This document shows, piece by piece, positions 4,501-43,805 of a stretch of 58,552 nucleotides of DNA (within the stretch, counting starts at the first letter, position 1; the number at the start of each line of letters is the position of its first letter). This DNA is from a virus. The stretch lies in the IMG/VR virus record IMGVR_UViG_3300021962_000122, positions 1 through 58,552 of that record; one strand, 5' to 3'. Under the pieces are notes generated by a model. That model did no database searches, was not told where the DNA came from, and saw nothing but the letters and a program-made list of their open reading frames with translations. A program made the position numbers and the translations under genes.

Positions 4501-5853
4501 ATGCCCGCATTGCTTATGACCGCCGCCGAGATTGCAGCAGCCGAAGCTGCCGCAGCGCAAATCCTTGCCGCCCAACAAGCCGCAGCCGCCACCGCAGCCG
4601 CAACAGCCGAAGCTGCACAAATTGCACAAGCTGCACAAGCTGCACAAGCTGCACAAGCTGCACAAGCTGCTCAAGCTGCTCAAGCTGCTCAAGCTGCTCA
4701 AGCTGCTCAAGCAGGTACGCAAGCTGCTGCACAAGCAGGTACACAGGCTGCAACACAAGCTGCAACACAAGCATCAACAAACGGTATTCAAGCACTGGCG
4801 CAAGAGGTGGGTGTCAGTGCGCAGCCCACAGGGATTGAGCAAGTTTTTCAACAAGCACAAGCAAACAACATCCCAATGTCGCAAGAGCAGTTTCTAAACA
4901 ACTCTTTTGCTGGCCAAGGGCAATACGTTGATTTAAGTGGGGCGCCTGCTGGACAAGTTTCTCCCAACCCCATTACTTCCGTAGAACTCCAACCAACATC
5001 AGTTACGCATAATCTTGATCCCGTACAACAAATCCAATCACAATCAGTTGACTTTGGCGAGGGCGTTGGAGAGACTCTTGGGCGAGGGTCTTATGCTTCA
5101 CCATCCGCACCTCCTGCCGCACCTCCTAATACTACTTATAGTGCTTTGGCGGATAAATACGGTTTAGATACTAGTGTTGGAATTAATCCCAAAGGTGCAG
5201 AAACGCTTAAACTCCAACCGTCAGGAGACCCTTTCTACAACATCAATTCTGGGCACATCGACCAAACATTGGGTAGACCGGGTTTTGGTATTACCGATGT
5301 AGCGGTTGAACCTAGTGCAATGAGTTCTAACTTGCCCGCACAACCAGCGACTGGACTGCAAGGGCTGATAGACAAAAGTCTGGCATATGCACAAGCAAAC
5401 CCCTTGCAAACCGGTTTTGGTGCAATGTCTCTTTACAACATGCTCAATCAACCTAAGCCGTACGAAAAGCCAAAGTACAAATCTACATTTGACCCCAGCA
5501 CTTACAGGCCATACGAACCCACACCACCTAACCCTCCGTACCGCGCTCGGTATGCGCAAGGCGGCATCGCCGATCTTGGCGGTTACTCAGACTACGCCCG
5601 TGGTGGGCGCATGCTCAAAGGGCCGGGAGACGGCATGTCTGACGACATACCTGCGACAATTGCCGACAAGCAACCCGCACGTTTGGCCAACGAAGAGTTT
5701 GTGATTCCTGCCGATGTGGTCTCTCACCTTGGTAATGGCTCGTCTGAAGCTGGCGCTAAAGCGTTGTACAAGATGATGGACAGAGTTCGTCAAGCACGCA
5801 CAGGCACCAAGAAACAAGGCAAACAGATTAACCCTGAGAAGTACCTCGCTTAA
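4501..5853 (+). CDS. Ala/Gln-rich probable internal virion protein
   Basis: A 450-residue protein. Residues 1-95 are almost pure Ala/Gln (QAA triplets) and probably helical. The middle is low-complexity and Pro/Gln-rich. The C-terminus has RYAQGGIADLGGYSDYARGG, then GPGDGMSDDIPATI and ANEEFVIPADVVSHLGNGS, a conserved ending that I associate with virion proteins of related uncultured phages. It starts three bases after the cupin stop and opens a run of internal-virion-type genes. No enzymatic motif is visible. Confidence 0.65.
   Translation: MPALLMTAAEIAAAEAAAAQILAAQQAAAATAAATAEAAQIAQAAQAAQAAQAAQAAQAAQAAQAAQAAQAGTQAAAQAGTQAATQAATQASTNGIQALAQEVGVSAQPTGIEQVFQQAQANNIPMSQEQFLNNSFAGQGQYVDLSGAPAGQVSPNPITSVELQPTSVTHNLDPVQQIQSQSVDFGEGVGETLGRGSYASPSAPPAAPPNTTYSALADKYGLDTSVGINPKGAETLKLQPSGDPFYNINSGHIDQTLGRPGFGITDVAVEPSAMSSNLPAQPATGLQGLIDKSLAYAQANPLQTGFGAMSLYNMLNQPKPYEKPKYKSTFDPSTYRPYEPTPPNPPYRARYAQGGIADLGGYSDYARGGRMLKGPGDGMSDDIPATIADKQPARLANEEFVIPADVVSHLGNGSSEAGAKALYKMMDRVRQARTGTKKQGKQINPEKYLA
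4627..4707 (+). repeat. 9-bp tandem repeat encoding QAA
   Basis: Nine head-to-tail copies: four CAAGCTGCA followed by five CAAGCTGCT. They lie inside the 450-aa virion gene and keep the frame, so copy number can change in steps of three residues. The sharp switch of variant halfway suggests recent slippage duplication of two parent units. Confidence 0.95.
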
Positions 5854-14900: not shown

Positions 14901-17900
14901 TTGGTTGAAGCCAATAACGCGTACGGAGGTCAAAACCCAAATAAAATTTTTAAAGAAGCTGTTCAAGGCGAAATTGAAAACATTGAAGAGGAAAGAAAAC
15001 AGTTTTCTAATTTAAGTAGTGCGCCGCGTGCTGTACTTGCATCACAAGTATCGCCTGCTAGGGCCGCAATAGCAGCGGCACAGTCTTCTGCACGCGTAAC
15101 TGCCAGACCCATAACTGCAACACCAGTTAGAAACTATGGGTACGGGCCTGTAACTAAACCTTTAAGTTGGCGTGTGGAATGGATGCGGGGGTTGTCTGAC
15201 GCAGAAGTAGATAAAAAAATTGAAGAGCTTAAAAAGTTTGCAGAAACTGCTGACGAACATTTAGAAGCGGTCAATCAATTTCCTGTCTATAAAGGCAAAG
15301 AATACATTGAGTTGTACAAAGCGTACCCCACTGCCGCAAAGGTCATACACGCATTTGACAAAATGATGGACGCCAACCAAGGCACACCACCGTCTTGGAA
15401 AGAAGCTATTGCCAGTGTGAAAGCTGAAGCAAGCAAAAGCGTAAAAGAGTTGGGGGAGTTTTTTGAACGTTTTACATACGGAAAAGACCCGTACACAAAA
15501 CAGGTGTACGACGAAGCAAAAGAAACTTTACGTGACATTGATGCGTTTGACATAAACGACTTTAAGTACAACCCTCCGTCTGGGCCACCTGTACCTGAAC
15601 CAGCAGGTTACATGATGCGCACGTTGCACACACGTCCTGAGAACGAGTACATTCTTTATGACAGCCTTGCAGACAAACAACCAGAAGTTGTTAAAGATGC
15701 GTTTAAACGTATCTACGATAATTTAGATAAAAAACAACAAGCTGTTTTTAACCGTTCAATAGGCTTTGTACGACCAGATCGGCAAAACGGGCGCGATTTG
15801 TATAACGCTTTAAGTGCCGTGCTTGAACAAGGCGGTATGCCTAGTAAGTTGTGCGACATGTTTGCATCTGAAATGCTGCATGCCGAAGGTGTTGCTGGTA
15901 TTAAGTTTTTTGACGGCGTGTCAAGATACTCAGCAGCACAAGGTACTCCGGGCACATACAACTACGTTGACTTTGGTGACAAAGATGAAGGTGCGCAGAT
16001 CATTGCCACCGACATTAATCCGATCAATCAAACACAGCCAATGCAAAAAAGCGAGATACTGTTCTCGCGTTCAGAAGAGTTTACAAACCCTGAGCTTGCC
16101 AAACAAAGCAAGTTTATTGCCAAAATTGTGGCCAAGCAAAGAAGCTGGTCTGAAAAGATTAAAGCCAATACAACCGGGCTGGCTTTTGAAACACAGCTTG
16201 TAGATAGATTTGCAGGCTTCGAGCGTTTGGCCAAATACATGGATCCGGTCAAAGGCACGCAGATGATGTACTACCTGCGCATGTATGACCAACGCATGAA
16301 TTTTGTGTCTCAAGCAGTATCCAATGGCGCACCGGCAATCGTGGAGAAAACACGGCCTGACGGCAAGGTTGAGCGTTTGATTGAGAGCAAAGAGAGCGCC
16401 AACATCCACAATGTTGTTCAGATTTTGAAAGAAGCCCAGCCAATGGTTGGCAACGCAGAAGCTGTAAACCGCATATTCACTTTGTACATGGCCGCTATTC
16501 GTGCGGACAACAAAGGATTGTCTTCATTGAACTTTGGTGAAGACGTTACACAAGAACTGCTCAACGAAACCATGGCCGCCATAAAGGCCACACCCGGCTT
16601 GGAAAAAGTTTTGAAGCAAGCTAAAGATGAGTACAACGCCTACAACCGTAATTTGGTTGAGTTTGTTGTCAGCACTGGCGCTCTTTCCAAAGAAGTCGGC
16701 AAGCGTCTGCTGAGCGAAAACGATTACATACCGTTCTACCGTGAACGCAATGGCGTGGCTGAGCTTGTTATTGGCAACGAATCTCCTATCCGCATTGGTA
16801 GTATTGCTGAGCAGCCGTATCTGCATGAACTTGTTGGTGGCGACAGGCCCATCCTCGACTTCATGACCAGCTCGGTGCAGAACACCAATCTGTTGATGGA
16901 CATGGGTATGCGCAACTTGGCAACCAAGAACGCTGTGTTTGAGCTGGTTGATTTGAAAGCTGCCAAGTTTGTGAAAATGTCTGCTGGCCCAGACGTTGTT
17001 AAATTCAAAGACAACGGAGAAGATCGCTACGCAGTGCTGGCTACCGAAAAAGTAAAAATTGGCAACAAAGAGTTTGATACTGGCGTTCCTGCCGACATAT
17101 TGGTCAAAGGCATGGAGGGCATCCCAACACAGATGCCAGCAATGTTACGCGTCATGGCGTTCCCAGCACAGATACTGCGCAAAGCTATTACCCTCAGCCC
17201 TTTGTACACAGCCAAACAGTTGTTCCGTGACTCCGTGGCCGCGCCTATTCTTTCTGGCGCAGACTTCATGCCTGTCATTGGTGCGCTGAAAGAAATCAAC
17301 TCCACCACCAAGCAGACGCTTGAGCGCCGTGGTGTTACCGGAGGCCAGCAGTTTGTTGGTGGTGCCGAAGATTTGACCAAGATTCTGCGTGATGTGTCTG
17401 AGGGCAAACCGGGCTGGATGACTGCGCTTGGTAAGCTTGAAGCCATGAGTATGGAAGCAGATGCCGCAACACGTCGCGCCCAGTACAACAGCTACATTCA
17501 GCAGGGCCTGTCTGAGATGGAAGCAACACTGCTGTCGTTGGAGTCCATGAACTTCAACAAGCGCGGCGCGTCACCATCAATCCATGTGGCCAACTCCCTG
17601 ATACCTTTTTTCAACGCACAGATTCAAGGTCTGAACGTGTTGTACAAAGCGTCTATGGGCAAGATGCCATTCAACGATCAGCTGCGTATCCGTGAAAAAA
17701 TGATGCAGCGTGGTGCCATGATGGCAGTTGCAAGCCTTGCTTACGCCGCCTTGATGCAGGACGACGAAGCTTACAAAAACGCCACACCCGATCAAAAATA
17801 CGGCAATTGGTTTATTCGTGTGCCGGGTTTAGACGAACCCATCAAACTCCCTGTGCCGTTTGAAATCGGTTACATCTTCAAGGCGTTGCCTGAGGCAATA

Positions 17901-18656
17901 CTCAACAGCATGGTGAACGAGCACGGCGGTGAGGAAGCGGTCAAAGCTTTCAAACAAATCCTGCTTCAAACAGTTCCCGGCGGTTCGTCTTACGGCATCC
18001 CGCAGATCATGAAACCCGCCATCGAAGCAGGACTTGGCAAGTCGTTCTACACAGGTAGGGACATCTTGTCTGCGCGAGAGAAAGAGTTGTTGCCTGAAGA
18101 ACAGTTCCGCGCCAACACATCCGAGCTGGCTAAAGGTATTGGTAAAACACTGGGTATCTCTCCGATTGTGTTTGAGCAACTTGTCAGTGGTTACACCGGC
18201 ACAATGGGTTTGGCATTTATGCACGCACTTAGTGTTGGCGTGCCTACGGATGAGAGTCCTGATAAAGCAGTTAAACGTTTGTCAGAGTACCCAATCGTTG
18301 GTGGGGCGTTCCAACCAAACGACGCTGGTGGCATCATCAACAGCGTGTACGAGCGCATGAATGAAAATCTCAAGGTCAAGAACACCTTCAATAAGTTGGC
18401 ACAAGAAGGCAGAATGTCTGAAGCTATGGCGTTGCTTCAACGTCGTGGTAATGAGTTCATGCAAGCAGACTTGGCGAACAGTTTCAAAGCCAACATGAAC
18501 AAACTTGCTCAGGCTGAACGGGCAATTGCAGCATCCAACATGTCCCCCGAAGCCAAGCGCGAACAGCTGGACAAAATCAGGAAGATAAAGATCGCCGTTG
18601 CTCAAACGGTGAGAGAGGTTTCCGATAAAACCATACGCCTAACAAGCCCCTTCTAA
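8994..18656 (+). CDS. Giant polyvalent virion protein (metallopeptidase-like, ADP-ribosyltransferase-like and LPD-like domains)
   Basis: A single 3220-residue frame. It begins with VPLPDGSYVAIREGETPQQA and a Gly/Ala-rich hydrophobic segment (about 48-260). Long charged coiled coils occupy about 270-1560. At about 1750 lies LLHEVGVHLGFRNFF, a metallopeptidase-like helix in which the histidines are spaced HExxxH rather than HExxH. At about 1883-2335 lies an ADP-ribosyltransferase-like domain: WHGTGVKFDMFD, YGWGTY, then GIKFFDGVSR and GTYNYVDF. From about 2350 to the end is a large helical region (LFRDSVAAP, PFFNAQIQGLNVLYKA) resembling the LPD domains of phage polyvalent proteins. Such proteins are thought to enter the cell with the DNA. 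I see no vRNAP signature despite the N4-like size. Confidence 0.85.
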   Translation: MPQAVPLPDGSYVAIREGETPQQAYARAQQMYPEAFRVAAPAAPKETTFGGQTKEFFKGLVPGAIGLVEQAGTGISALLPEEQEKATQKYIKETAAAAKAPFAAAPGYEDTVGRKFGEAAGSIAPFLATGPFGLAGRVAGYGLGVGAGAGTQVEKSAAEGATEGQQTAATALGAVVGASEMFAPARILKRLGEPVLEGATSYVKRALMAGGEEAAQEAAAQAAQNIITKGIYKPEQEIIEQVGESAAYGGAVGALAQGLLDLAIGRRAPTTPLTDEVKQAREEAAVQAEQEKIRLNSVDYAQEVFQKTQELEAQRTALKQQLIPIKKGVSPETDYAHNRDINRQIEAINKELKPLADEYVRVKPILKRAEEEAKIAKLTPYEYALGLKPEEVGQKPAEPELYEQQIAKPPEAPKAEDVAAKYAAQSIQLANDQQLSSEKKPNDAVADYVSYLMRDPMLADQIVNKRMQLPGLPTGVRNSAVLDALKLQLAPGFKQEMETRKAAFGVPKAEEVKTPEVQAFTSYMDDLKSKRNDVGDDMFFKYMVDPKLEKIAEGKPPVIAVNPELKPFANIKRAERSREKINGLLDNIDQANADRDVALRSGNRDAADAAFERGQKALEQINAFVEPTPTGEVTKGRFPAAATAPESSIYAKEILRVRNEQNTALNTIEDKIDRLRRGETLGKEEMAATSPAILAQQAEEARGKYISAVLEEAAIHRRVAGKPELTYDEAIKAASRIHDVVGEWLDRAKAVPKKPELEEVIVQPAQMRANKLVRGAVTKRVLKTRDLATTPLNEIARLSDKEVKHFKAQIAKVVDSLSELPSTATREVPVLKQQFAATEAQKVAEAKGETAKTLGGELRRLREYVGNMIDKALTRNPPEEIQNSLERVKEIIDDGKASKELLDAAQNQAARILRGEDLGKQVYTKREAVPGKRVVENVPGREAETRFGERGRTYKSVGYEAELAPEGSALRELQDAIKLYERTAQEGEVAGEGAKGQGQLFPETRKELGYIRATPANFAKSPQIKPVWEALEQARKLKAKTEANQKARSVRDKQGFAQVEAIEEQLEAIKNQMQFFLLKPGDFNIGKYSNADIAKMFASYPEAGVTKEDKLLMDRYLQVSRQSIGKTKDQQEKAMSVFTAEEKARVNELISDFNTNKIPEYEKNVKQALQALSLGQRLESTNNRLVELMQDNNAAVRKQSEAARKTVEPLLEKLKLIKASLRNSVLLTDGQRAMLDSEIALQSQRGAYKDAMAKAMGKARQRLSDTLGELLDPEIERARRALKAAKTRLATVESQIETAKKEMTEGTGQAPNLINNLQKVQGLVENIEKAETELADLQEARFGEIENDVVVTEAMLDKDLKAEREYLELLERQLADMRKEPLTAVELGGRGELGKLKYPFSAQRLETQVKAQQAAVDEAQKRAEEFQKDVQVWWPKVTAAFKKDGISIKDLPGAVFKKGRKVAEIVTPEQKRLDDLRDKGVQAAKEVDEAAVRQRVKDKQIQLFDDEIFDARGEVQAFMGPEDMEKLADIMADPKTTNVKRVQATLKLGAMQKVASLEAQKQAFIEGKPAPKPKTATVPSTVALAAAKPFRTGSGVAKAFTPAEMDELARADIRDANELAKKILGTKAPQLPEPSKRKQGKMPDPNLGLFDDFEFSRGTPVKGLTKAELEAELTAGMGEPVTGRKIEAMVSNKLAVYESVQDFLDKQPKLKGVGKSKYEGLIPADAKGFVQDGKAVLFANNIGKGHGLGVLLHEVGVHLGFRNFFNEGQYNALVKTVKNWANKTEDSLEARVGKAAVRRVEAANTPPHQIDDELLAYAVEEAMQMGVEPVGVKGGNAVKNWLKMVVDGFKKALEKFGITSKNLTAGDLVNFAYGAAHLELKGTWHGTGVKFDMFDHTYMSTGSNAQTYGWGTYRAQKYGTAQSYQIDAATKQYDDWVERPDIQAWLESQKPKFTGKLPSGIPEQFLVMPLVEANNAYGGQNPNKIFKEAVQGEIENIEEERKQFSNLSSAPRAVLASQVSPARAAIAAAQSSARVTARPITATPVRNYGYGPVTKPLSWRVEWMRGLSDAEVDKKIEELKKFAETADEHLEAVNQFPVYKGKEYIELYKAYPTAAKVIHAFDKMMDANQGTPPSWKEAIASVKAEASKSVKELGEFFERFTYGKDPYTKQVYDEAKETLRDIDAFDINDFKYNPPSGPPVPEPAGYMMRTLHTRPENEYILYDSLADKQPEVVKDAFKRIYDNLDKKQQAVFNRSIGFVRPDRQNGRDLYNALSAVLEQGGMPSKLCDMFASEMLHAEGVAGIKFFDGVSRYSAAQGTPGTYNYVDFGDKDEGAQIIATDINPINQTQPMQKSEILFSRSEEFTNPELAKQSKFIAKIVAKQRSWSEKIKANTTGLAFETQLVDRFAGFERLAKYMDPVKGTQMMYYLRMYDQRMNFVSQAVSNGAPAIVEKTRPDGKVERLIESKESANIHNVVQILKEAQPMVGNAEAVNRIFTLYMAAIRADNKGLSSLNFGEDVTQELLNETMAAIKATPGLEKVLKQAKDEYNAYNRNLVEFVVSTGALSKEVGKRLLSENDYIPFYRERNGVAELVIGNESPIRIGSIAEQPYLHELVGGDRPILDFMTSSVQNTNLLMDMGMRNLATKNAVFELVDLKAAKFVKMSAGPDVVKFKDNGEDRYAVLATEKVKIGNKEFDTGVPADILVKGMEGIPTQMPAMLRVMAFPAQILRKAITLSPLYTAKQLFRDSVAAPILSGADFMPVIGALKEINSTTKQTLERRGVTGGQQFVGGAEDLTKILRDVSEGKPGWMTALGKLEAMSMEADAATRRAQYNSYIQQGLSEMEATLLSLESMNFNKRGASPSIHVANSLIPFFNAQIQGLNVLYKASMGKMPFNDQLRIREKMMQRGAMMAVASLAYAALMQDDEAYKNATPDQKYGNWFIRVPGLDEPIKLPVPFEIGYIFKALPEAILNSMVNEHGGEEAVKAFKQILLQTVPGGSSYGIPQIMKPAIEAGLGKSFYTGRDILSAREKELLPEEQFRANTSELAKGIGKTLGISPIVFEQLVSGYTGTMGLAFMHALSVGVPTDESPDKAVKRLSEYPIVGGAFQPNDAGGIINSVYERMNENLKVKNTFNKLAQEGRMSEAMALLQRRGNEFMQADLANSFKANMNKLAQAERAIAASNMSPEAKREQLDKIRKIKIAVAQTVREVSDKTIRLTSPF

Positions 18657-18795
18657 CACCAATGAAAGCTTGCGTGCGGTACTTGTAGGGAATTGAGGCG
18701 CGTAGCCCCAATTCCTTTACCTTCTCAACGTCCAGCCCCGGCACAAAAAACCCTTCACCCGGCTTAAGTGTCGCCCACGGATATATTGTTTCCAT
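18577..18795 (-). CDS. Small conserved phage protein, convergent with the giant gene
   Basis: A 72-residue protein beginning METIYPWATLKPGEGFFVPG and ending near RRGLLGVWFYR, a pattern I recognise as a conserved phage ORF of unknown function. The ATG at 18795 has GAGGAAGAG upstream; the TTG at 18813 is a poorer start. It overlaps the end of the primase gene by 32 bp and runs 80 bp into the 3' end of the giant gene on the other strand, so both ends are shared. Confidence 0.7.
   Translation of the reverse strand: METIYPWATLKPGEGFFVPGLDVEKVKELGLRASIPYKYRTQAFIGVRRGLLGVWFYRKPLSPFEQRRSLSS
18689..18718. terminator. Hairpin between convergent operons (possible bidirectional terminator)
   Basis: GGAATTG-A-GGC pairs with GCC-C-CAATTCC around a GCGTA loop: ten pairs with one mismatch, followed on the plus strand by only TTT. 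It begins 33 bp after the stop of the giant gene and lies inside the coding sequence of the 72-aa minus-strand gene. It is the only terminator-like structure seen at the convergence point. Confidence 0.5.
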
Positions 18796-21673
18796 TGAAG
18801 TGCTCTTCCTCAAAAGTTATGTGCATGGCGTTGACACGCATGGATGGGCCGTTGGTCTTGCCCAGCATATCTTTCTTGGAGTATTTGACACGAAACATCT
18901 TCTCCATCTGCTTCTTGAAATCGTCGTAGCTGAAGCTCATGCTGACGCAGTGTTTGCGTAGAAGCTGTTCCTCAATGAAGTACTCCCTGAACCCATCTGC
19001 AAGCGTGCCGTGTTCAACACGCCCAAGTACCTTAGACCTTGTAATCGACTTGTCAACAGTCTCACCGTCCCCCCATGCGGCCATCAGACGGCCTTCGGCT
19101 TTTTTGATGATTATGAAGTTGCCGTAGTTGTCGCCTGTGTAGGCATTCAATACATCTTCAGCGGTGCGTACACTGCCACGGATGATGCCACGGGCTTTCT
19201 CCACAAGCACTCGCAGAGCGTCAATAACTTTCTGCACTTCTACATCAAGGATGTTGGCATAGTCCCTGCGCAGTAACACGGCAGCCGCAACAACCACTGT
19301 GCAGCCAGCATGCCAGTAACGTTCGTCATCATCGAAGTTCAACACTTTCTTCAAATGCTTGTGTGTCTTGGCCACGACTTGTTCTGCTACGTGCTGGTTC
19401 TTTGTCAACCATCTGACCCATGCTTCGCCAGCTACGCCGTAGTTGTGCTTCATCATCAACAGGACTTCGCGTTCCTTGGGAGTCCACTCCAGCTTAATGT
19501 TTGGGTTCCACTCCAGCATACGCAGAAGCTCACCGTTTGAGCTGAACTTCCTTGCCCCCGCCATGTAGTCGGTCAGGCTTTCGTTGGAAGTCATGGTGCA
19601 TGTTGTCTTCCACGTGGTGTTGTTGATACGTTCCTTGTTTGCGCCAGCCTCCATACGTTCCTTGCCCTGCGCTTCAGCAAAGTCAAAGATAAACGTCGGT
19701 GCCCACTCCATGTCAGCACGCTGGGTGTTCGTGATCTCGTCAATCAAAAGCGGCATGCTGTTGAGCAGACCAGCACGTTGTTGCATGGCTACGGGAGATG
19801 TACCCTTACCTGTTCTGTACCGCAGAGGGTTGCCCCATACACCAGCCTTGGCGCTCAGCACCAGCGATTTACCAGTACCAGACCAGCGTGAACCGATGTG
19901 CCACACAAACCCTTCGTACTCTGTGAAACGCATGAGAGGCGCACCAAACGAGTCCAAACACACAGCCAACGCCGTCTCCATGCCGGGCTTGTCCACGAAT
20001 ACGGTCTGCCACAACTTGCGCCAGTTATCCAGCGTGCCAGCGTTTGTGGTGTTGCGGTTGATGTTCTCAAGGCCGGGCATAGGGATGCGAGTCTCGCCGC
20101 CTTCTTTACTGAACACGCGGTTGTTGTACACAAAGCTGTTGTCTTCTTGCCAGCCACACTGGTATGGGATGACGATTGGTTTCTTGGACTGCGATGCCTC
20201 ACCTACACAGGCGCGTACGTACTCGTAAAGCTGTTTATCAAAGCCAGCAAATGTGGACACGATGTTTTGACTGGCCAACCATTTGAGCGTCTCGTCTTTG
20301 CTCACGATTGATTTCTGCGGAAAGTTCAGCGTCAACACGCCTTCAGGACGCACAGCGGCCATGTGAACCAAGTGGTCGTTCTCCATCTTGAGCAGATCAA
20401 CCACAAACAAATCGTACGGAACAAGCTGCACAGTCTTCTTGGACTTCTTGCCGTCTTCGTCTTCCTCAACTTTCACAAAATACACGCCGCCGTTCTCGCC
20501 ATAGCTGTAGCCGCGTGGTGGCAGTGGGCGTTTAACAGACGCGACTTGTTCTGGCTCGTCACTGTCTCCCGCATCCTCCAGCGCAAAGAACTCCTCCTCA
20601 ACAAAGTCTTCACTGACGGTTGCCAGCGGTATGACTTTCTCTGTGTTGTCAGCTTTGATCTCACGCCCAAGAATCAGGGGGTTTGTAATCTTCCCCCAGT
20701 GTGGACACTCAGTGCAGATGCCGGGGTTCAGAGAGTCCATTGCCGCACATGAGTATGGCCCTTTTATCTCAGCCAGTTTCTGATTCATCCTGTCCGGCGT
20801 GTACGGGTGCAACTCAGACAGCCACACAGCTTTCTCAGCGCCATCGTCACAGACCTTTGCCCATGACAGCAACGCTCTCCAAATGGGTTCTTTGCCGTCC
20901 TCTTGGGCGGTGGCAACGTAGTCAGCAATCTGAGCGCAGTGAGGTTGGAACTCGGCAAAGACTGTGCGGCTGTTCTGCATCATCTTTACCTGAGCGGCGG
21001 TCTTGGCGTTCTTCGGCCTCGCCCCCGGCAACATGATCGGGTCAGGTTGCGGTACTGCTTTCTCTTTGAGGTTGGCGTTGATTACTTCAGCAAACGCATC
21101 GAAGTCAAACAGGTCGCCTTCCATCAACAGCTTTACAGGAAGCGGCACTGCGTACTTCTTCTTGTGGTTCATGGTGCCGGGCACCCGCATCAGCCTTGCC
21201 GCATCTGCGGTGACATTCATGTCGATGACCATGCCTTCTTGTTTGCACAGTAGTTTTATGTTTTGCGCAACAGGTCGCCACTCATCAATCGTCATGTCGC
21301 GTGTTATCGGCCAGTAGCAGTGAAGCCCACCACCAGAACCAACAATCCACGGCTTGCCAAGCTTATCCAGCCCGACCTTGGCCATGAATGCGTCCAACGC
21401 CAGCACAGCGGCTTTCTTTGATGCGTAGCCATCCAAGTCTACAAAGAACGACCTTATGTGCGTGGCTTTCTCAGCTTCACGCTTGTTGCCCTCAAAACAA
21501 GACACTGCATAGAAAATGTCGCAATGATCTGCGTTCCAGCTGTCTATGTAGGGCTGAAAGTCGGCAATCGTGTCCTTGAACACATGCTGCTTTTTTCTTG
21601 TGAGTTCTACCGCACAGTACGAGCCTAAACCCGAAGACGGCAGAACCACCGCTAGAAACTCAAGCGGAGTCAT
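18764..21673 (-). CDS. PrimPol-type primase fused to helicase/ATPase
   Basis: A 969-residue replication protein. The N-terminus is an archaeo-eukaryotic primase-like domain: FVDLDG (77-82, metal-binding DxD), GSGGGLHCYWP (112-122, catalytic His motif) and RVPGTMNHK near 168. A middle region has a CxxCPHW zinc-like motif. The C-terminal ATPase (DUF927/superfamily 3-like) has GSRWSGTGKS near 594 and MPLLIDEIT near 640. It likely primes and unwinds at the fork and is the last large gene of the leftward operon. Its end overlaps the 72-aa gene. Confidence 0.88.
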   Translation of the reverse strand: MTPLEFLAVVLPSSGLGSYCAVELTRKKQHVFKDTIADFQPYIDSWNADHCDIFYAVSCFEGNKREAEKATHIRSFFVDLDGYASKKAAVLALDAFMAKVGLDKLGKPWIVGSGGGLHCYWPITRDMTIDEWRPVAQNIKLLCKQEGMVIDMNVTADAARLMRVPGTMNHKKKYAVPLPVKLLMEGDLFDFDAFAEVINANLKEKAVPQPDPIMLPGARPKNAKTAAQVKMMQNSRTVFAEFQPHCAQIADYVATAQEDGKEPIWRALLSWAKVCDDGAEKAVWLSELHPYTPDRMNQKLAEIKGPYSCAAMDSLNPGICTECPHWGKITNPLILGREIKADNTEKVIPLATVSEDFVEEEFFALEDAGDSDEPEQVASVKRPLPPRGYSYGENGGVYFVKVEEDEDGKKSKKTVQLVPYDLFVVDLLKMENDHLVHMAAVRPEGVLTLNFPQKSIVSKDETLKWLASQNIVSTFAGFDKQLYEYVRACVGEASQSKKPIVIPYQCGWQEDNSFVYNNRVFSKEGGETRIPMPGLENINRNTTNAGTLDNWRKLWQTVFVDKPGMETALAVCLDSFGAPLMRFTEYEGFVWHIGSRWSGTGKSLVLSAKAGVWGNPLRYRTGKGTSPVAMQQRAGLLNSMPLLIDEITNTQRADMEWAPTFIFDFAEAQGKERMEAGANKERINNTTWKTTCTMTSNESLTDYMAGARKFSSNGELLRMLEWNPNIKLEWTPKEREVLLMMKHNYGVAGEAWVRWLTKNQHVAEQVVAKTHKHLKKVLNFDDDERYWHAGCTVVVAAAVLLRRDYANILDVEVQKVIDALRVLVEKARGIIRGSVRTAEDVLNAYTGDNYGNFIIIKKAEGRLMAAWGDGETVDKSITRSKVLGRVEHGTLADGFREYFIEEQLLRKHCVSMSFSYDDFKKQMEKMFRVKYSKKDMLGKTNGPSMRVNAMHITFEEEHFNGNNISVGDT

Positions 21674-27513: not shown

Positions 27514-29481
27514 TCATGATTTTGCTAACCCGTACCTACGGTGAGCGCCACCGTCAGCGGCCAGAGGTATCCCCGGCATGTAACTCGGTTCCATAGTCAT
27601 CTGCGCCAAGACCCAAGTCTTAGCGTCAGCAACTTCTTCATCCGGCACAACAGCTATTAACTCGTCGTGCACCGTGCCAGCGATGGGGTACTTCTTCGAT
27701 ACCCTCAACATGCCATCCGTCATCACGATTCTGGCAAGCGCTTGCGTCACATTATTCGTTACTTTACCAGCATACAGCTTCGTTGCATGCTCTCCGTACA
27801 CCCACTGCGTTCTGCCTTTGTGATCTAACTCAGGGCGCAAGTTGGGGTACAGAAGTTTCATTCCGTTCGGCAATTCTATCTCGCCTTTTCGGAATGTCAA
27901 ACACTTGTGCTGGTACTCTTTACCCAGATACAGCGACTTGTGTATGAGTTCGCTGAACAGCCCCCACATGGACACAATTGGCCAAGCAGTACGGCGATAG
28001 GTGTCGATGATTGCCTTGGCGGCAAGGGCATGTGTCAGGAGTTCTTTGTCAGAACAAGTGTGTGGGATGTCGAACAGCTTGCTATCGTTGCCGTCCCAGC
28101 TGGCAAACTCCTGCGCGTACTCAGAGTTAACCCCTAACGCTTTGGCAAAGTCCTTGGAGTACCTGACAGGCGGCGCACCAAGGAAGCCTGTCAGAAGTTG
28201 CGACGCGAACGATGCCCAACCAAGCCCATACCCACAACCAAGTAACGCGCTCTTTGCAGACTGCCGCAAGTCTGGGTGGCTGTCCTTAGTAAGTCCGGGT
28301 ATGTTAAACATCTGCGCTCCGAACGCCGCGTAAGGGTCACCGCCTGCCCTGAAGATGTCGAGCATGTCTGTGTAGTCAGCCAGCCACGCAAGTACTCGCG
28401 GTTCAATCTGCGATAAGTCGCCAACAACGAGCTGGTAGCCTTCGGGAGCCATAATCGCTTTGCGTAAGAAACTTCCGCGCTTGAGGTTTTGCATGTTGAT
28501 TGCTGAACCTTTTGCCGCCGTCCAACGACCCGAGAGAGCGCCGTAATACGAGAGCGGAACCGGTAGTTTGCCGCGCTGGCTAATGTCAAGGAAGCGTTGT
28601 GCACGCGTGCGCTCGGTTGTGGATTTAACTTTAAGGCGTGCTTCACAAAGGAGGGCAACATCTTCACGTTCACCGTTGAGCATCGCTTGGAAGAGGGCGT
28701 CATTCTTTGCAAAAGCGTACGTCGTTTTGCCGGTAGTTTTACTGACCTTAGTCGGGGGAGTAACCCCGAGGCTTTCAAGTATGTTTGCAAACTTCGGGTT
28801 CGACGCGAGTTCAGTCTCCTGTATGCCGAGTCTTTGTAATAGTCCTTCACGCAACTCTCCTTCTTCTGTTAATGCTTTGATGAGCATCTTGCTGTCAAGC
28901 TCAAGCTGTGGTCGTGTGTACATTTTGAGCGTCATGTCGATCAGACGCAGTTCGGATTTGGGATAACCGGCTCCAAGTCGTTTGAAGATTTCCTCGCACA
29001 GGTACACATCATGGGCACAGTAGTCGGCGAGTTCTCGTTCAATGGTAACGTCCAGTTCGAGTAATCCGTCGGTGCTGTGTACAGCTGTGCCTTTAGCAGG
29101 GAGTCCAAAATCTTGAGCAAGTTTCGCGAGGGAATTACCAACCTCCACGCCGCGTAAAGCTCTTGCCATTGATAACGTGTCGAAGATGAAGGCAGGATGG
29201 GCGTTGTATACCCACTCCATAATGGATACATCGAACTGTGCGTTGTGCGCAAGCACTGCGGTTCGTCCCCAATTGATTCCAGAAAAGTATTCACGTAGTC
29301 CATCTCCTCCAACCCATTTAATTGGGTCATCGCTTCCGAACTCATGTACGCATGCTCCAAATGCTTTGAACCTTTTGTCACGTATGTACTCCTCAGTTGT
29401 AAGTTTTGATAGCGTGTAGTCCTTCTTATCCCACCGAGTTTCAAAGTCGATGGCGACTATCTTGTCAAATGTTTTTGTCAA
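27514..29481 (-). CDS. DNA polymerase, family A, with 3'-5' exonuclease
   Basis: 655 residues. The exonuclease has DFETR (near 13, Exo I), LAHNAQFD (Exo II) and DYCAHDVYLC (Exo III). The polymerase has GDLSQIEPRVLAWLA (motif A, near 352), SAKSALLGCGYGLGW (motif B) and TVHDELIAVV (motif C). All catalytic acidic residues are present. It is similar in size to T7-like phage polymerases and starts by ATGA overlap with the small gene upstream. Confidence 0.95.
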   Translation of the reverse strand: MTKTFDKIVAIDFETRWDKKDYTLSKLTTEEYIRDKRFKAFGACVHEFGSDDPIKWVGGDGLREYFSGINWGRTAVLAHNAQFDVSIMEWVYNAHPAFIFDTLSMARALRGVEVGNSLAKLAQDFGLPAKGTAVHSTDGLLELDVTIERELADYCAHDVYLCEEIFKRLGAGYPKSELRLIDMTLKMYTRPQLELDSKMLIKALTEEGELREGLLQRLGIQETELASNPKFANILESLGVTPPTKVSKTTGKTTYAFAKNDALFQAMLNGEREDVALLCEARLKVKSTTERTRAQRFLDISQRGKLPVPLSYYGALSGRWTAAKGSAINMQNLKRGSFLRKAIMAPEGYQLVVGDLSQIEPRVLAWLADYTDMLDIFRAGGDPYAAFGAQMFNIPGLTKDSHPDLRQSAKSALLGCGYGLGWASFASQLLTGFLGAPPVRYSKDFAKALGVNSEYAQEFASWDGNDSKLFDIPHTCSDKELLTHALAAKAIIDTYRRTAWPIVSMWGLFSELIHKSLYLGKEYQHKCLTFRKGEIELPNGMKLLYPNLRPELDHKGRTQWVYGEHATKLYAGKVTNNVTQALARIVMTDGMLRVSKKYPIAGTVHDELIAVVPDEEVADAKTWVLAQMTMEPSYMPGIPLAADGGAHRRYGLAKS

Positions 29482-33351: not shown

Positions 33352-34476
33352 TTACTTGTTACCGAAATAAATTTTGTGCTCGGACAACATCTTGCCGAAG
33401 TTGGCAATGGTTGCGAACACGCCTACACGCTGAGATGTAGCGACGGTGTTGCAGAAGATTGATTGCATCTCTGCACGCATACGCCACACATACTCAGTGA
33501 CTGCTTCAGCTTCTTCGCGTGTCTGTGCACGAGATACAAACTGGAAGACTTGAATCAACTGCGCGGTTGGGTTGTCAGACATCGGTGCCTTGGCAGGGTC
33601 AGCGATAACACGCGCATAGTCACAGATGTCACGACCGAAGCGAACGAACGATGCCATTGCCTCGGCAGTAACGACACCGACAGTACCGATGAGTGCATGC
33701 TCAAGTGTGTCGTCGTCAAGTGTGTGCATGCCCTCGTCCAAGATGTCACCAGCGGCAACGAGGGAACGAGGCGTTGCATACGCGAGTTGTGTGGACTTGG
33801 GATTGAAGATGTGCGCGTTGTCTTTGGACAGCGTCTTACCCTCAAACTTGCCACCCTTCTCGTAGTCGAGGAACGAGTCCATGACCATCGGGTTGTTGTC
33901 AACGAATGCAATGACCATCGGATTGACACCCGCATCGGTAGCCCAACGCACCCACTCGACAGCAGTCGGCTTGCGCATCTTGACGAACACAAGACGGTTG
34001 CGTAGGTGAGCTTGGATGGAGTCGCCAAGACCCTCGACCGAGAGATTGGTAGCGGCAAAGACAACGCTACCCTCGACGAAGTGATAGTTGCCAACGCGTT
34101 GCTCGTAGACGATAGGCGCAAGAACATTCTTGATGAACTGCGGTGCCTTGGCTATCTCATCTAAGAACACCATGATAGGTTTGCCACCGTTAACGCCACG
34201 CTGATTGGTTTTGGATACACCGAAGCGTTCATTGGGAAGCTCACGCGACACGCCGTTCTCACGGTCAAGGTCAGGCATCCACACCGAGCCATCGGACAAC
34301 TGAGTGCAGTCGATGGGGTCAACGGCAATGTGATTGGCAAACTTAGGCAGACGCTTGAGTTGATGGAACAACGCAGTCTTGCCGATACCGTTCTCGCCCT
34401 CGACGATGACGGTACGCTTGTGACCCACAGCAGAGATGAGGTCAATGACTTGAGAAGAAGAGAGATATTTATCCAT
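33352..34476 (-). CDS. MoxR/CobS-like AAA+ ATPase
   Basis: 374 residues. Walker A GENGIGKT (27-34) and Walker B IMVFLDEIA (101-109) are intact. FAATNLSVEGLGDSI is sensor-1-like and RNRLVFVKMRKPTAVEW carries an arginine-finger region. This family remodels protein complexes together with a VWA-domain partner, here encoded directly upstream. The three genes form one cassette behind a promoter near 35.73 kb. Confidence 0.85.
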   Translation of the reverse strand: MDKYLSSSQVIDLISAVGHKRTVIVEGENGIGKTALFHQLKRLPKFANHIAVDPIDCTQLSDGSVWMPDLDRENGVSRELPNERFGVSKTNQRGVNGGKPIMVFLDEIAKAPQFIKNVLAPIVYEQRVGNYHFVEGSVVFAATNLSVEGLGDSIQAHLRNRLVFVKMRKPTAVEWVRWATDAGVNPMVIAFVDNNPMVMDSFLDYEKGGKFEGKTLSKDNAHIFNPKSTQLAYATPRSLVAAGDILDEGMHTLDDDTLEHALIGTVGVVTAEAMASFVRFGRDICDYARVIADPAKAPMSDNPTAQLIQVFQFVSRAQTREEAEAVTEYVWRMRAEMQSIFCNTVATSQRVGVFATIANFGKMLSEHKIYFGNK

Positions 34477-34497
34477 GATTACTTTCCTTTGTGTTGA

Positions 34498-35694
34498 TTA
34501 AAGATTGATATGCAAGACCTTGCCGTAAGTGGGAACGAACGAGTCGTTGTCCACCACACCCCACAGAGACGGCATCGGGGTGCTAGGCGTATCGCAACCG
34601 AGGTATCCATCGGTTAGCCACACGATTGCTTTGGCATCTATCTTGTGCTCACGAATGTAGTCGACAACAACTTGTGGAGTTGTGCCACCACCGCCTTGAG
34701 GTTGCAAGAGAGACGCAATCAATTCATACTCAGTTGGTTTGAACAACTGTTCACCGCACACTTCGTTGTCCCACCACAAGATGCGAACAGCCTCGGGCTT
34801 GACCAGTTGACAGATGCGAGCAACCTCGCCAAAGAGCAGACGATAGTGCGGATACATCGAGCCTGATGTATCGCATGCAAGTATCAACTCGCCAACTGAC
34901 TCGGTGAAGTGCGAAGGCATGATGAAGCCAGACGCAAGCAGTCGTTTGTTGGGAGGACAGAAGCGTGAGTTGTCATCGCCTTGGGATATGGCAGTTATCC
35001 AGTCCTGCATAGCTGGTCGCCAGTCAGTGATGCGTTCCTTGGCATGACCGAAGATGTCACGCCCGCCATTGCCCTTGCCCGCCAACTTACGCGCAAGCAT
35101 CTCGCCTTGACGATTGGCATCGTCAATTTGTTTGCTTAGCTTTTCTTTCTCGTCATCGGCAAACTCACCGTCCTCATGTGCGTCGATAGGTTCGTCATAC
35201 CCATGGTCATCGTCACTGCCATTGCCGTCCTTGTCAGGTTCCTTGCGCCCTTGTTTGATGAGGTCGTTGAGTACTTGAGGGAAAGACCAACCGAAGTATT
35301 TGCGGTCAATCAGTAGCGTTGGTGTGGGGCGTTCAACGAATGTGAAGTTGGGGTCAAGCTCTTCGATGAGTGCGTTGACCACATAGTCCTGCGCGATGTT
35401 GCTGAGCTTAGGCATGCGCTTAATCTCTGCACGATACAACACACAGTGCTTGAGTGCCACATGGAAGTTCTCATGCAGTACGAGATAGCGCAGTTGCTTG
35501 CGGTTGAGTGGTGTGATGAAGTCAGCGCCGTACTTCTTGTCACGCCCATTGGTGGATGCGGTAGGCACCTTGTCCGATACCTCGGACTTGCCCATACATA
35601 TCACACCGCTGAGCAATGCGAATCGGTGGTCACGCATGCAGTCGATGTTGCACGCCTGAACCCGTTGGGTGAGGGTCATCTTCTCGAAAGTCAT
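34498..35694 (-). CDS. Metallopeptidase-like/VWA-domain protein (DUF2201-type)
   Basis: 398 residues. The N-terminal half has LVLHENFHVALKH (74-78 is HExxH), a zinc site in a helical domain. A charged acidic linker with many D/E residues lies near 160-185. The C-terminal VWA-like domain has LACDTSGSMYPHY near 273, a MIDAS DxSGS. It is the usual partner of the MoxR ATPase downstream. The HExxH may make it a protease whose action is gated by the ATPase; that is inference. Confidence 0.8.
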   Translation of the reverse strand: MTFEKMTLTQRVQACNIDCMRDHRFALLSGVICMGKSEVSDKVPTASTNGRDKKYGADFITPLNRKQLRYLVLHENFHVALKHCVLYRAEIKRMPKLSNIAQDYVVNALIEELDPNFTFVERPTPTLLIDRKYFGWSFPQVLNDLIKQGRKEPDKDGNGSDDDHGYDEPIDAHEDGEFADDEKEKLSKQIDDANRQGEMLARKLAGKGNGGRDIFGHAKERITDWRPAMQDWITAISQGDDNSRFCPPNKRLLASGFIMPSHFTESVGELILACDTSGSMYPHYRLLFGEVARICQLVKPEAVRILWWDNEVCGEQLFKPTEYELIASLLQPQGGGGTTPQVVVDYIREHKIDAKAIVWLTDGYLGCDTPSTPMPSLWGVVDNDSFVPTYGKVLHINL

Positions 35695-38365: not shown

Positions 38366-38392
38366 AACTGGCAGACACCATGTCTGCGAGTT
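38366..38392. repeat. 27-bp palindromic element, copy 1
   Basis: AACTGGCAGACA-CCA-TGTCTGCGAGTT; one mismatch in the 12-bp arms. It lies 50-76 nt upstream of the acidic gene. On the plus strand it runs into TTTT. Confidence 0.85.
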
Positions 38393-39159: not shown

Positions 39160-39186
39160 AACTCGCAGACACCATGTCTGCCAGTT
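39160..39186. repeat. 27-bp palindromic element, copy 2
   Basis: AACTCGCAGACA-CCA-TGTCTGCCAGTT. It covers the stop codon of the upstream zinc-ribbon gene and lies 27-53 nt before the start of the 57-aa gene. Confidence 0.85.
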
Positions 39187-39823
39187 ACTTACGCCGAACC
39201 AGTAGCTCGGGCACTTTCATGCGTTCTTTCTCCTCCTTCCTGATGCTCAACCACCTGTCACGCAAGGACTCGAGTCCGAACTCGGACACCAAGTCCCACC
39301 AGTTTCGTTTCTCATTTTTATATTTGTGTGGGTCTGCCTCGAAGTCGAGCATGATGCGCCCCCTCTCCCGCTTGAGTATGTCCTCGTACTTCTCGAGCAA
39401 CCCCTCATGTGCTTGGTTCCCTACCTCTTGTGCGTAGCGTCTCTGTGCCCGCACCTTGTGTATCTCGTAGCCCATCGGTGCGAGGGCGTCTTTCAGTTGT
39501 TTGCGCCACTGCTCTACCCACGCTTCGTATCGGGCGCGGCTTTGTACCAACAACGCCATGCGGTGGCGTTCCTCCAGTATGAGCTTTGCCTTGACCTCAC
39601 TGATGTCACCACTCACCACCATGTTGTGCAGTTGTCGTGGCGTTTGCTTGCGTGGGGGCTTGCGTTTGGGTTGGCAGTCTTTGCAGTTCTTTGAGATGAT
39701 GGTCATGAGCACCTCACCTTTCATGCCCCTTGCGTGCATTTGTGCACGGGATAAACGCTTTTTGAATTGGGCGAGAGGCTTGGTTGTCCCGCACTTTGCA
39801 CATTTTTTGTAATCGTTTAGCAT
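39185..39823 (-). CDS. Zinc-ribbon protein, possibly DNA-binding
   Basis: 212 residues from ATG 39823. The N-terminus has KKCAKCGTTKPLAQF and later NCKDCQPKR (two CxxC pairs, zinc ribbon). The rest is a long basic helical stretch (EERHRMALLVQSRARYEAW). It is the first gene to the left of the iteron-rich region, so it may act there; that is inference from position only. Confidence 0.65.
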   Translation of the reverse strand: MLNDYKKCAKCGTTKPLAQFKKRLSRAQMHARGMKGEVLMTIISKNCKDCQPKRKPPRKQTPRQLHNMVVSGDISEVKAKLILEERHRMALLVQSRARYEAWVEQWRKQLKDALAPMGYEIHKVRAQRRYAQEVGNQAHEGLLEKYEDILKRERGRIMLDFEADPHKYKNEKRNWWDLVSEFGLESLRDRWLSIRKEEKERMKVPELLVRRK

Positions 39824-39851
39824 GAGAAAGCCCTTATGTTTCAGTCGACAA

Positions 39852-40216
39852 TACCCACTTGTTGCTCGAGCATACCCACCATTTTTCGTGATGGGACAAA
39901 CTAGTGGGTGCGGTGTTTTACCAGTAAACATCGAGTATTTTAACCCTCCATCCCTCGATACCTATCTGATTTCTGAAGAACAGAAACTTTTTTTCTTTTC
40001 TTTTTTAATTTGTGTCCACTTGTACCCATATATATATATATTTATCTTTTTATCTCTTATATATATGTAGGTATTGTGGGCTGGACACTGGCTGAACGCC
40101 CATGAACGCTGGAAAAAAAGCGCACCCACTTGTGTGGCAAGGTGTGAAAAATGGTGGGTATGATACCCACTACTGTATAAAAACACAGTAGAAGGATTAG
40201 TTACTGTATGTGGGTA
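39852..40216. other. Candidate replication origin: iteron-like repeats with AT-rich tract
   Basis: No gene is seen between 39824 and 40236. The block holds eight GTGGGTA/TACCCAC-like cores in both orientations (39852, 39873, 39904, 40023, 40123, 40154, 40164, 40210); the copies at 39904, 40023 and 40123 differ by one base. Two abut as the perfect palindrome GTGGGTA-TGA-TACCCAC (40154-40170), and TACTGT...ACAGTA lies at 40171-40190. An AT-rich stretch with long TA runs spans 40028-40068. Iterons around an AT-rich stretch are the layout of many replication origins. An alternative is a regulatory hub for the leftward operon. Confidence 0.5.
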
Positions 40217-40272: not shown

Positions 40273-40458
40273 TCAGAGGAGTTTGAGTTGTCTGCATGAC
40301 GCTTTGACTTCGTTCCATTCCTCTTTCCATCGTGCCTGTCGCAGGGCTTCGGCACGCCTTGGGTCTTTGCGCCTGAGTTCCTCGTCTGCTTTGATTTGGG
40401 CTTTGAGGGCGCTGAGCTTGGCTTGCACGCCCGAGGGGATTTGTTTTCTGATTTGCAT
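40273..40458 (-). CDS. Small helical protein
   Basis: 61 residues, MQIRKQIPSGVQAKLSALKA then a charged helix rich in R/E. SD AAAGGAAAGCC. Function unknown. Confidence 0.65.
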   Translation of the reverse strand: MQIRKQIPSGVQAKLSALKAQIKADEELRRKDPRRAEALRQARWKEEWNEVKASCRQLKLL

Positions 40459-41638: not shown

Positions 41639-42301
41639 GTGTACACTGCAAACCAACGCGCAACAACCCTGTGTAAAAACACAGCTATCAAAATGTTGGA
41701 GCATTTGGTGCAGTTCTCCCCAGACGACGCCGGTCTGGACGATTTCGTAGGTATTAAAGCTGTTTCGTCAGCGGATTTACTGTCGGCGCAAATAGCCACG
41801 GCAGAGTTGTTGGATGAGCTGGGTGTCACGCCAGACAACCAGATCAGTTACGAAGCCCAGACACAGGCGGCTCGCGACGCGTTCAAAGTGGTGATTGCCG
41901 ACAAAGACTCGGACGAGCAAAAGACAAAGCTGCTCCAGTTAAAGACCCCCGCCGCTGTGCGCCACATCACGGGCATGCTGACAGCGTATGACTGGGAATT
42001 TGTACAGATGGCCAAAGAACTCCGTGGGTACACGGTGGCCAAGTTGTTTGAGGAAACTCAGTCCCCCAACGCCAACATCCGCTTGAAGGCTCTTGGTCTA
42101 CTTGGCAAAGTTACGGAAGTCGGGCTGTTCACCGACAAGGTTGAGATCAAGAAAACCGACCTGACCGACGAAGAGATCGACAAGAAGCTCAAAGACAAGC
42201 TTGCTGCCTTCATGGGCGTGCAAGACGTGGAGCCGATTGAAGACATAGAAATAAACGAACCGCCAGATGAAACTCAGCAACCTGACGCTCAGCCCGACTG
42301 A
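41639..42301 (+). CDS. Terminase small-subunit-like protein
   Basis: 220 residues. Helical; the C-terminal part (ALGLLGKVTEVGLFTDKVEI, LTDEEIDKKLKDKLAAF) is the pattern of phage small terminase-like proteins upstream of TerL. The GTG at 41639 follows GGAAATAA; the ATG at 41693 lacks an SD, so the start is uncertain by 18 codons. It overlaps TerL by 35 bp. Confidence 0.7.
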   Translation: MYTANQRATTLCKNTAIKMLEHLVQFSPDDAGLDDFVGIKAVSSADLLSAQIATAELLDELGVTPDNQISYEAQTQAARDAFKVVIADKDSDEQKTKLLQLKTPAAVRHITGMLTAYDWEFVQMAKELRGYTVAKLFEETQSPNANIRLKALGLLGKVTEVGLFTDKVEIKKTDLTDEEIDKKLKDKLAAFMGVQDVEPIEDIEINEPPDETQQPDAQPD

Positions 42302-43805
42302 AATTCAGGCCATTCAAAAAGCCCTCCCCACCATGTCCCTAGCAGAGAAGGTGGAGCTGATGGACATGCTTGAGGAACGTGAAAAACGTTACAAACTGGT
42401 GGCTGGGCGCACGGACATGATTAAGTTTGCCCAGCACGTCTACCCCGGATTCAAGGTCGGGCCTCACCACAGGAAGCTGGCCAAGATATTTCAAGACGTG
42501 ATTGATGGCAAAAAGAAACGCGTCATCATCAACATCGCCCCACGTATGGGTAAATCTGAATTCTCGTCGTACCTGTTCCCAGCGTACTTCCTTGGCAACT
42601 TCCCCGACAAGAAGATCATCATGGGCACGCACACCGCCAGCTTGTCTGAGGACTTCGGTCGCCGAGTCAGAAACTTAATCAACGATGAGAGCTACCATGA
42701 ACTATTCCCCCAAACCCTTGTGGCAGACGACCAGAAGGCTGCTGGAAAGTGGAGCACTGCTGCCGGTGGTCAGTATTACGCTGCTGGTGTTGGCGGTGCT
42801 CTCGCTGGTCGCGGAGCTGACCTTTTTGTTATTGACGATCCGCATTCGGAGCAAGATGTAAAGGCTAACTCACGCCTTGCGTTCGACACCGCTTGGTCTT
42901 GGTTTCAGACTGGCCCGTTGCAGCGTCTGATGCCGGGCGGGGGGATCATCGTGGTCATGACACGCTGGGGGCCGTTGGACTTGACCGGCAGGCTCATCCA
43001 GTACCAAGTCAATAACCCGGACTCACCGCAGTGGGAGATCGTGGAGCTACCGGCGATCCTTAATGAAAATACTGAAAATGAAAAAAGCCTTTGGCCAGAG
43101 CAGTGGCCGCTGGAGGCCTTACGCAGCGCCAAGTCCTCGATGGATCCACGGTATTGGAACGCGCAGTACATGCAGCAGCCCACCAGTGACACGGCTGCCA
43201 TCATCAGCAGAAAGCACTGGCGCATCTGGGAGAGCGACACACCGCCTGAGTGCGAGTACATCATCCAGAGCTGGGACACGGCGCACGAGACAAAGAGCAC
43301 ATCTGACTACAGCGCGTGCACAACGTGGGGCGTGTTCTACAACGAGGAAGAAAACAGCAAGGCGCAGGTCATACTGCTGGACGCCTTCAAGGACAGGATG
43401 GCGTTCCCTGAGTTAAAGCAGGTGGCCTTCAAACAGTGGCGGGAGTGGGAGCCGGATGCGTTCATCGTGGAGAAGAAAGCTGCTGGTGGCCCGCTGATCC
43501 AAGAGCTGCGCAACATGGGCATCCCTGTGCAAGAATTTACACCCAGCCGTGGAAACGATAAGATGGTGCGTGTCAACGCCGTGGCCGACATGTTTGCATC
43601 TGGCTTGGTATGGGCACCGGACACACGTTGGGCACGCGAAGTCATTGAGGAAGTCGCAGCTTTCCCTGTGGGGGAGAACGATGACTACGTGGACACGACC
43701 ACCCAAGCACTGCTGCGCGTCAGACAAGGCGGCTTCATCCGTATCGACACAGATGAGCCAGATGAACCCCGATTTTTCAAACGCCGAGTAGCGGCGTACT
43801 ACTGA
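42267..43805 (+). CDS. terL: Terminase large subunit
   Basis: 512 residues. N-terminal ATPase: Walker A APRMGKSE (91-98), Walker B LFVIDDPHSEQD, coupling motif VMTRW. C-terminal RNase-H-like nuclease: QSWDTAHETK, FIVEKKAAGGPL and DDYVDTTTQALL, giving the acidic triad. It packages DNA through the portal encoded next. Confidence 0.95.
   Translation: MKLSNLTLSPTEIQAIQKALPTMSLAEKVELMDMLEEREKRYKLVAGRTDMIKFAQHVYPGFKVGPHHRKLAKIFQDVIDGKKKRVIINIAPRMGKSEFSSYLFPAYFLGNFPDKKIIMGTHTASLSEDFGRRVRNLINDESYHELFPQTLVADDQKAAGKWSTAAGGQYYAAGVGGALAGRGADLFVIDDPHSEQDVKANSRLAFDTAWSWFQTGPLQRLMPGGGIIVVMTRWGPLDLTGRLIQYQVNNPDSPQWEIVELPAILNENTENEKSLWPEQWPLEALRSAKSSMDPRYWNAQYMQQPTSDTAAIISRKHWRIWESDTPPECEYIIQSWDTAHETKSTSDYSACTTWGVFYNEEENSKAQVILLDAFKDRMAFPELKQVAFKQWREWEPDAFIVEKKAAGGPLIQELRNMGIPVQEFTPSRGNDKMVRVNAVADMFASGLVWAPDTRWAREVIEEVAAFPVGENDDYVDTTTQALLRVRQGGFIRIDTDEPDEPRFFKRRVAAYY

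Follow-up and report, generated by a model that had tools for sequence, protein, structure and literature searches.

The window, that is, the whole IMG/VR record of an uncultured lake virus (58,552 bases) analysed here, contains a gene-free block of about 370 bases (39852-40216) flanked by two genes that point the same way, both on the minus strand. The block lies upstream of a long leftward operon holding the phage's own replication set, which comprises a PrimPol-DUF927 protein, a family A DNA polymerase, an SNF2 helicase and an exonuclease. The two halves of the gene map diverge at a position about 1.4 kb from the block, and the start of the small terminase gene is likewise about 1.4 kb away (terS and terL, 41639-43805). 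The genes most relevant to the block are as follows.

18764-21673, minus strand: PrimPol (AEP primase) fused to a DUF927 helicase, 969 aa, candidate initiator or replicative helicase (Pfam DUF927, PF06048, E 1.4e-23)
27514-29481, minus strand: family A DNA polymerase, in the leftward operon shared with PrimPol-DUF927
39185-39823, minus strand: zinc-ribbon protein, 212 aa, with CxxC...CxxC and long helices, candidate reader of the iterons, always adjoining the block
40273-40458, minus strand: small charged protein, 61 aa, flanking the block opposite the zinc-ribbon gene, read from the DNA

The AlphaFold model of the zinc-ribbon protein has a pLDDT of 85 and matched no known fold. The small charged protein ends in QLKLL, and its relatives in QLRLL or QLRLI. 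PrimPol-DUF927, encoded 18 kb from the block, matches PHROG families of DNA primases, primase/polymerases and primase/helicases and carries the motifs FVDLD and SGGGLH; its AlphaFold model has a pLDDT of 36, and at least 577 relatives occur in IMG/VR. The proteins searched included no recognisable homologue of O or P, and no RepA_N homologue was seen. The replication operon also contains a conserved pair of an ATPase and a DUF2201 metallopeptidase/VWA protein (33352-35694); Rhizobium phage RHph_TM3_14A has a similarly annotated pair in its own replication operon. At 8994-18656 the window encodes a protein of 3220 aa that contains an LPD38 (large polyvalent protein) domain.

The initial annotation had described this gap as an iteron-like array of GTGGGTA/TACCCAC-like cores, two of them in a perfect palindrome, around an A/T tract beside a zinc-ribbon gene. 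This description holds. Exact cores occur at 39852, 39873, 40154, 40164 and 40210 (five within 372 bp, where the rest of the window predicts 0.06); with the one-mismatch forms at 39904, 40023, 40067 and 40123 the count rises to nine, against 0.97 expected. Counted as the shorter words GTGGGT/ACCCAC, the gap between the zinc-ribbon and small charged-protein genes holds seven, plus further one-mismatch cores. Among the 7-mers of the window, GTGGGTA shows the strongest clustering, leaving aside ATATATA, also from this block, and words from a coding tandem repeat at 4.5-4.8 kb. The strongest tandem repeat of the window is coding (4610-4712, 11.4 copies of the unit AAGCTGCAC). What the initial annotation missed is that most cores are parts of one large imperfect inverted repeat, whose outer, middle and inner arms surround the A/T tract. 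When each 200-bp left half was compared with the reverse complement of its right half over the whole window, the block ranked first with a score of 72 (mean 25.4, sd 5.5; next best 48). Of all 80-mers in the window, the richest in A/T (81%) begins at 39986-39990, inside the block. A/T content and inverted repetition are independent measures, and both point to the block. The elements are listed below, with positions in relatives given from a central motif and letters denoting groups of related blocks.

39851-39858, minus strand: site 1, ATACCCAC (GTGGGTAT on the minus strand), adjoining the zinc-ribbon start codon; at +219 to +223 in groups A and C
39871-39887, minus strand: outer arm, 17 nt, 100% complementary to 40146-40162; 93% Watson-Crick in 21 blocks, slid controls 32-38%
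39872-39879, minus strand: site 2, ATACCCAC, lying in the outer arm on the zinc-ribbon side; at +198 to +202 in every block but two, where it is displaced by exactly 10 bp
39897-39924, minus strand: middle arm with a GTGGGTG site at 39904; 28 nt, 82% complementary to 40109-40136; 89% Watson-Crick
39947-39964, minus strand: inner arm, 18 nt, 83% complementary to 40068-40085, reading ATAGGTATCGA on the minus strand (inverted-repeat search)
39986-40069, no strand: A/T-rich tract holding the most A/T-rich 80-mer of the window, probable duplex unwinding element
40027-40068, no strand: central dyad of two TATATATA runs about 17-19 bp apart, retained by nearly all lineages, also where the arms have changed
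40068-40085, plus strand: inner arm with the conserved motif CCCACAATACCTA (minus strand; inverted-repeat search)
40109-40136, plus strand: middle arm with a CACCCAC site at 40123 (inverted-repeat search)
40146-40162, plus strand: outer arm with a GTGGGTAT site at 40154 (inverted-repeat search)
40154-40170, no strand: perfect palindrome GTGGGTATGATACCCAC, exact, with two sites 11 bp apart; group A only
40170-40191, no strand: short hairpin CTACTGT...ACAGTAG beside the palindrome, read in the sequence
40210-40216, plus strand: GTGGGTA site at the outer edge, not kept in the relatives examined

Sites 1 and 2 form a direct-repeat pair with a 21-bp period, and the two TATATATA runs lie within the A/T tract. 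No reading frame spanning the block is shared by all relatives, so the block is non-coding, as the initial annotation had it. Around it, intergenic palindromes like GGCAGACANNNTGTCTGCC occur at 38370, 39164, 40241, 40832 and 41168, all within about 1.7 kb. In other groups, the same block edge bears a hairpin of different sequence (CAGTATCA...TGATACTG or CTCCACAA...TTGTGGAG), and from these sequences the palindrome family of the edge hairpin seems to change in concert.

Relatives of the block were collected in two ways. Searches of IMG/VR with the zinc-ribbon protein gathered 21, then 40, then 64 loci, and the block is present upstream of the zinc-ribbon gene whether the group is close (protein identity 75-90%), middle (68-72%) or distant (about 33%). 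To avoid protein bias, all viral contigs were also scanned for the central motif CCACAATACCTATNTATATA alone; this returned 62 viral contigs, with the zinc-ribbon gene downstream in every contig long enough to show it. All lineages examined have a single copy per genome, always in the same place. Named relatives of the block or of the zinc-ribbon protein are absent from INPHARED, and the bacterial genome collection holds no relative of the zinc-ribbon protein or of the PrimPol; searches with TerL matched DSL-LC04 and pelagiphages. The zinc-ribbon protein (query A6) had no match in 30 partial records that bear the PrimPol, a negative of little weight since these records are fragments. In the distant group, most replication and structural proteins share 65-86% identity with their counterparts in the window, against 31% for the zinc-ribbon protein. 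By this comparison, the latter evolves much faster than most of its neighbours, and unusually fast for a gene always linked to the block.

Among 40 distinct blocks in three groups, with site positions measured relative to the central motif, the main sites hold position within 1-3 bp. The site at -79/-80 is present in all 40, as is that at about +200, displaced in L046 and L140 by exactly 10 bp. Group B has the site at -49/-50 throughout, group A in about half of its blocks; the site at about +170 occurs in most of group A, all of B and part of C, and that at about +221 in groups A and C. Spacings follow steps of 11, 21 and 30 bp, and the shift in L046 and L140 reflects an exact 10-bp deletion, equal to one helical turn, so that the helical face of the sites is preserved. 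Such a pattern is what one would expect of a series of protein sites on double-stranded DNA. Conservation of the cores in relatives, whose absence the initial annotation had listed among the grounds against its reading, was thus found. A 15-bp word, CTCGATGTTTACTGG (minus strand, 39921-39935), is exactly inverted to CCAGTAAACATCGAG in the close relatives L005, L008 and L067. Its retention in either orientation would be expected of a DNA-binding site, and the inversion indicates that rearrangements occur in the block.

In far relatives whose PrimPol is 64-71% identical to that of the window, the order is small gene, hairpin, first site, TATATATA dyad, further sites and zinc-ribbon gene. The outer arms of one of them, G016, share 19 exact nucleotides, the outer part of which is unlike that of the window; the arms of G013, L328, G018 and L316 match each other too (z 9-10). 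In the distant lineages B, D, E, G and H, arms of altered sequence still match each other (z 5-13 in most). Lineage F (L317-L326) keeps the same layout with the word GTGGACA in place of GTGGGTAT, and its PrimPol, located in two records, is 46-47% identical there. Arm pairing in this lineage is not significant in the arm-matching test; it is weak or not significant in L267 and in part of group C, where it is mixed (z 1.4-6.6). These exceptions count against an origin.

The block could instead be an operator or promoter region, in which case the zinc-ribbon protein or an HTH regulator would bind the sites and control the leftward operon, the A/T tract would be promoter DNA, and the block would have no part in replication. 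The 21-bp direct repeats adjoining the zinc-ribbon start and the long operon downstream are in keeping with such a role, but a search covering promoters of the sigma-70 type found none in the block. Moreover, a mirrored array of 300 bp with a central TATATATA dyad and paired arms exceeds the needs of an operator, and the arms drift while still matching each other. A purely regulatory block is thus unlikely. A simple divergent promoter was considered and rejected, since both flanking genes lie on the same strand.

A packaging site (pac or cos) read by the small terminase is suggested by the proximity of terS and terL and by the distribution of contig ends: among 38 whole contigs, seven have an end in the 500 bp downstream of the block centre, where 2.7 would be expected, a mild enrichment, and one 57.8-kb record begins inside the block. 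Strain variation in a mosaic stretch can also yield such ends, however, and two circular assemblies (with end overlaps of 127 and 123 bp) cross the block, which argues against a fixed physical end. A cos site was rejected on the same ground. Pac sites usually lie in or beside terS, which was counted against packaging as well, and this function for the block is quite improbable.

The pairing of the arms raises the question of whether the block acts as RNA, either as a structured non-coding RNA or as a long 5′ leader of the zinc-ribbon gene. Watson-Crick pairs make up 84-93% of the arm columns and 19-38% in controls slid by 1-3 columns, and seven arm pairs occur as more than one Watson-Crick type (5 of 11 in the core of the middle arm). 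Such co-variation, together with strong folding (z about -6 on the window), suggested a structured RNA. Both strands fold equally well, however, with mean z of -5.56 and -5.72 in 14 representatives and the antisense strand lower in 7 of the 14. G-U wobbles number 42 on the gene strand and 61 on the other in one count and 18 and 21 in a second; in the arm-matching set they number 58 and 92 for all representatives and 23 and 39 with one per lineage, leaving no clear excess on either strand at that level. Rfam gave nothing at gathering score, its weak matches lying far below. The equal folding of the two strands and the lack of a robust strand bias in wobbles led to rejection of a structured RNA, which is very unlikely here; with the absence of an Rfam match, they indicate that the inverted repeat most likely acts as DNA. 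Matching of the arms could be kept either by selection for foldback or by template switching between them.

A recombination or inversion hot spot or mobile-element remnant without a replication role, in which template switching copies arm into arm, would account for the 15-bp inversion and the mosaic arm modules among close relatives, but it is scarcely credible for a block kept as a single copy at a fixed place in all lineages examined, with positions held to a few bp and no transposase or integrase recognised beside it.

The block is probably the cis-acting replication origin of these phages, of an iteron plus stem-loop type. Evidence from the sequence consists of phased GTGGGTAT-type sites, mirrored arms and an A/T-rich dyad that are kept across lineages in non-coding DNA linked to one gene. 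Clustering of words beyond chance, an A/T-rich stretch inside the array and helical-phase spacing (11-, 21- and 30-bp steps in 40 blocks) are features of iteron origins, and the cooperativity of iterons depends on helical phase (PMC4980987). An origin, as proposed in the initial annotation, is therefore the best-supported reading given the conservation of anatomy and site positions in dozens of relatives, while the label of iteron block, apt for the repeated words, proved too narrow because the arms are also a maintained inverted repeat. The proposed test by GC skew did not lend support. Several genomes have their cumulative minimum no more than 0.5 kb from the block, but skew at fourfold sites follows gene strand rather than block side and has no clear switch at the block; GC skew is accordingly given little weight.

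Initiation could proceed in several steps. The initiator (the zinc-ribbon protein, the PrimPol-DUF927 helicase, or both) would bind sites in both arms on one face of the helix and draw the two arms together. This would then strain or extrude the A/T core, and two helicase rings may load onto the melted dyad. Subsequently, the PrimPol domain would prime and the family A polymerase extend. The 21-bp direct repeats abutting the zinc-ribbon start could in addition allow the binding protein to control its own gene. From the features above we infer all three elements of this scheme, namely the origin role, the reader protein and the importance of foldback.

Replication origins are unknown for most uncultured phages. 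This block can be recognised across lineages although the neighbouring protein falls to about 30% identity, and it thus provides a searchable landmark for a large group of freshwater phages (at least 577 PrimPol relatives in IMG/VR). The natural switch of word and the paired arms make two points testable: which protein reads the origin, and whether DNA foldback takes part in initiation by PrimPol-helicases.

Several known origins resemble the block in part. DUF927 domains have been counted as mobile-element helicases (PMC5862659), and the DUF927 protein Cch is related to the Rep of SaPIBov1; SaPI Rep helicases bind short repeats (iterons) at their own origin (PMC7581432). Origins of the SaPI/SCCmec type, served by self-loading Rep/Cch helicases of the DUF927 or D5 families, share with the block short repeated words in a conserved intergenic stretch and an element-encoded DUF927-type primase/helicase (here PF06048, E 1.4e-23). 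They differ in layout, a comparison separate from sequence similarity, as the words of the block are mirrored in long paired arms. Furthermore, the helicase here forms part of a fusion with an AEP PrimPol whose gene lies 18 kb off, with a zinc-ribbon gene rather than a rep gene beside the array. SaPI-type origins lie directly downstream of rep, whereas the gene here is at 18764-21673 and the block at 39852-40216.

The AEP primase-helicase protein of pRN1 has been tied to a long stem-loop origin, and its authors propose the same for some phages (PMC4234260), BIP-1 among them. The block resembles this type in the fusion of an AEP primase to a helicase and in a long imperfect stem with a large loop, whose structure is kept as the sequence changes. 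The pRN1 origin has a 21-nt stem, a 58-nt loop and no iterons, directly downstream of orf904; the block has arms of about 120 bp with phased iterons, and its PrimPol gene is 18 kb away rather than adjoining. Lambdoid origins also place several O-protein iterons beside an A/T-rich tract (PMC7466680), but the lambda origin lies inside the O gene, while the block occupies a gene-free gap with its words mirrored on both sides of the tract. The origins of SaPI, pRN1 and lambda all adjoin or sit in the initiator gene, unlike the block, and the 18 kb to the PrimPol gene speaks against an origin in this respect. PLE and RepA_N iteron origins provide a further example, a phage-satellite origin of repeats with inverted sub-repeats (PMC7145576), with words and layout different from those here. 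In RHph_TM3_14A, the nearest cultured phage with a distant PrimPol, the most A/T-rich gap lies early in the replication operon; the words and arms of the block are absent from it, and this stretch (at about 19.93 kb) could be the origin of that phage. The PrimPol homologue of RHph_TM3_14A (L331:42239-45322) is annotated as 'putative integrase'.

Taken together, the block shares features of SaPI and pRN1 origins and is a full member of neither, owing to the 18 kb that separate it from the PrimPol gene. More tentatively, it might represent an undescribed kind of origin, in which a cruciform-capable palindrome with co-evolving arms would be combined with a fast-evolving zinc-ribbon initiator, a switchable word (GTGGGTAT mostly, GTGGACA in one lineage) and a distant PrimPol-DUF927 helicase.
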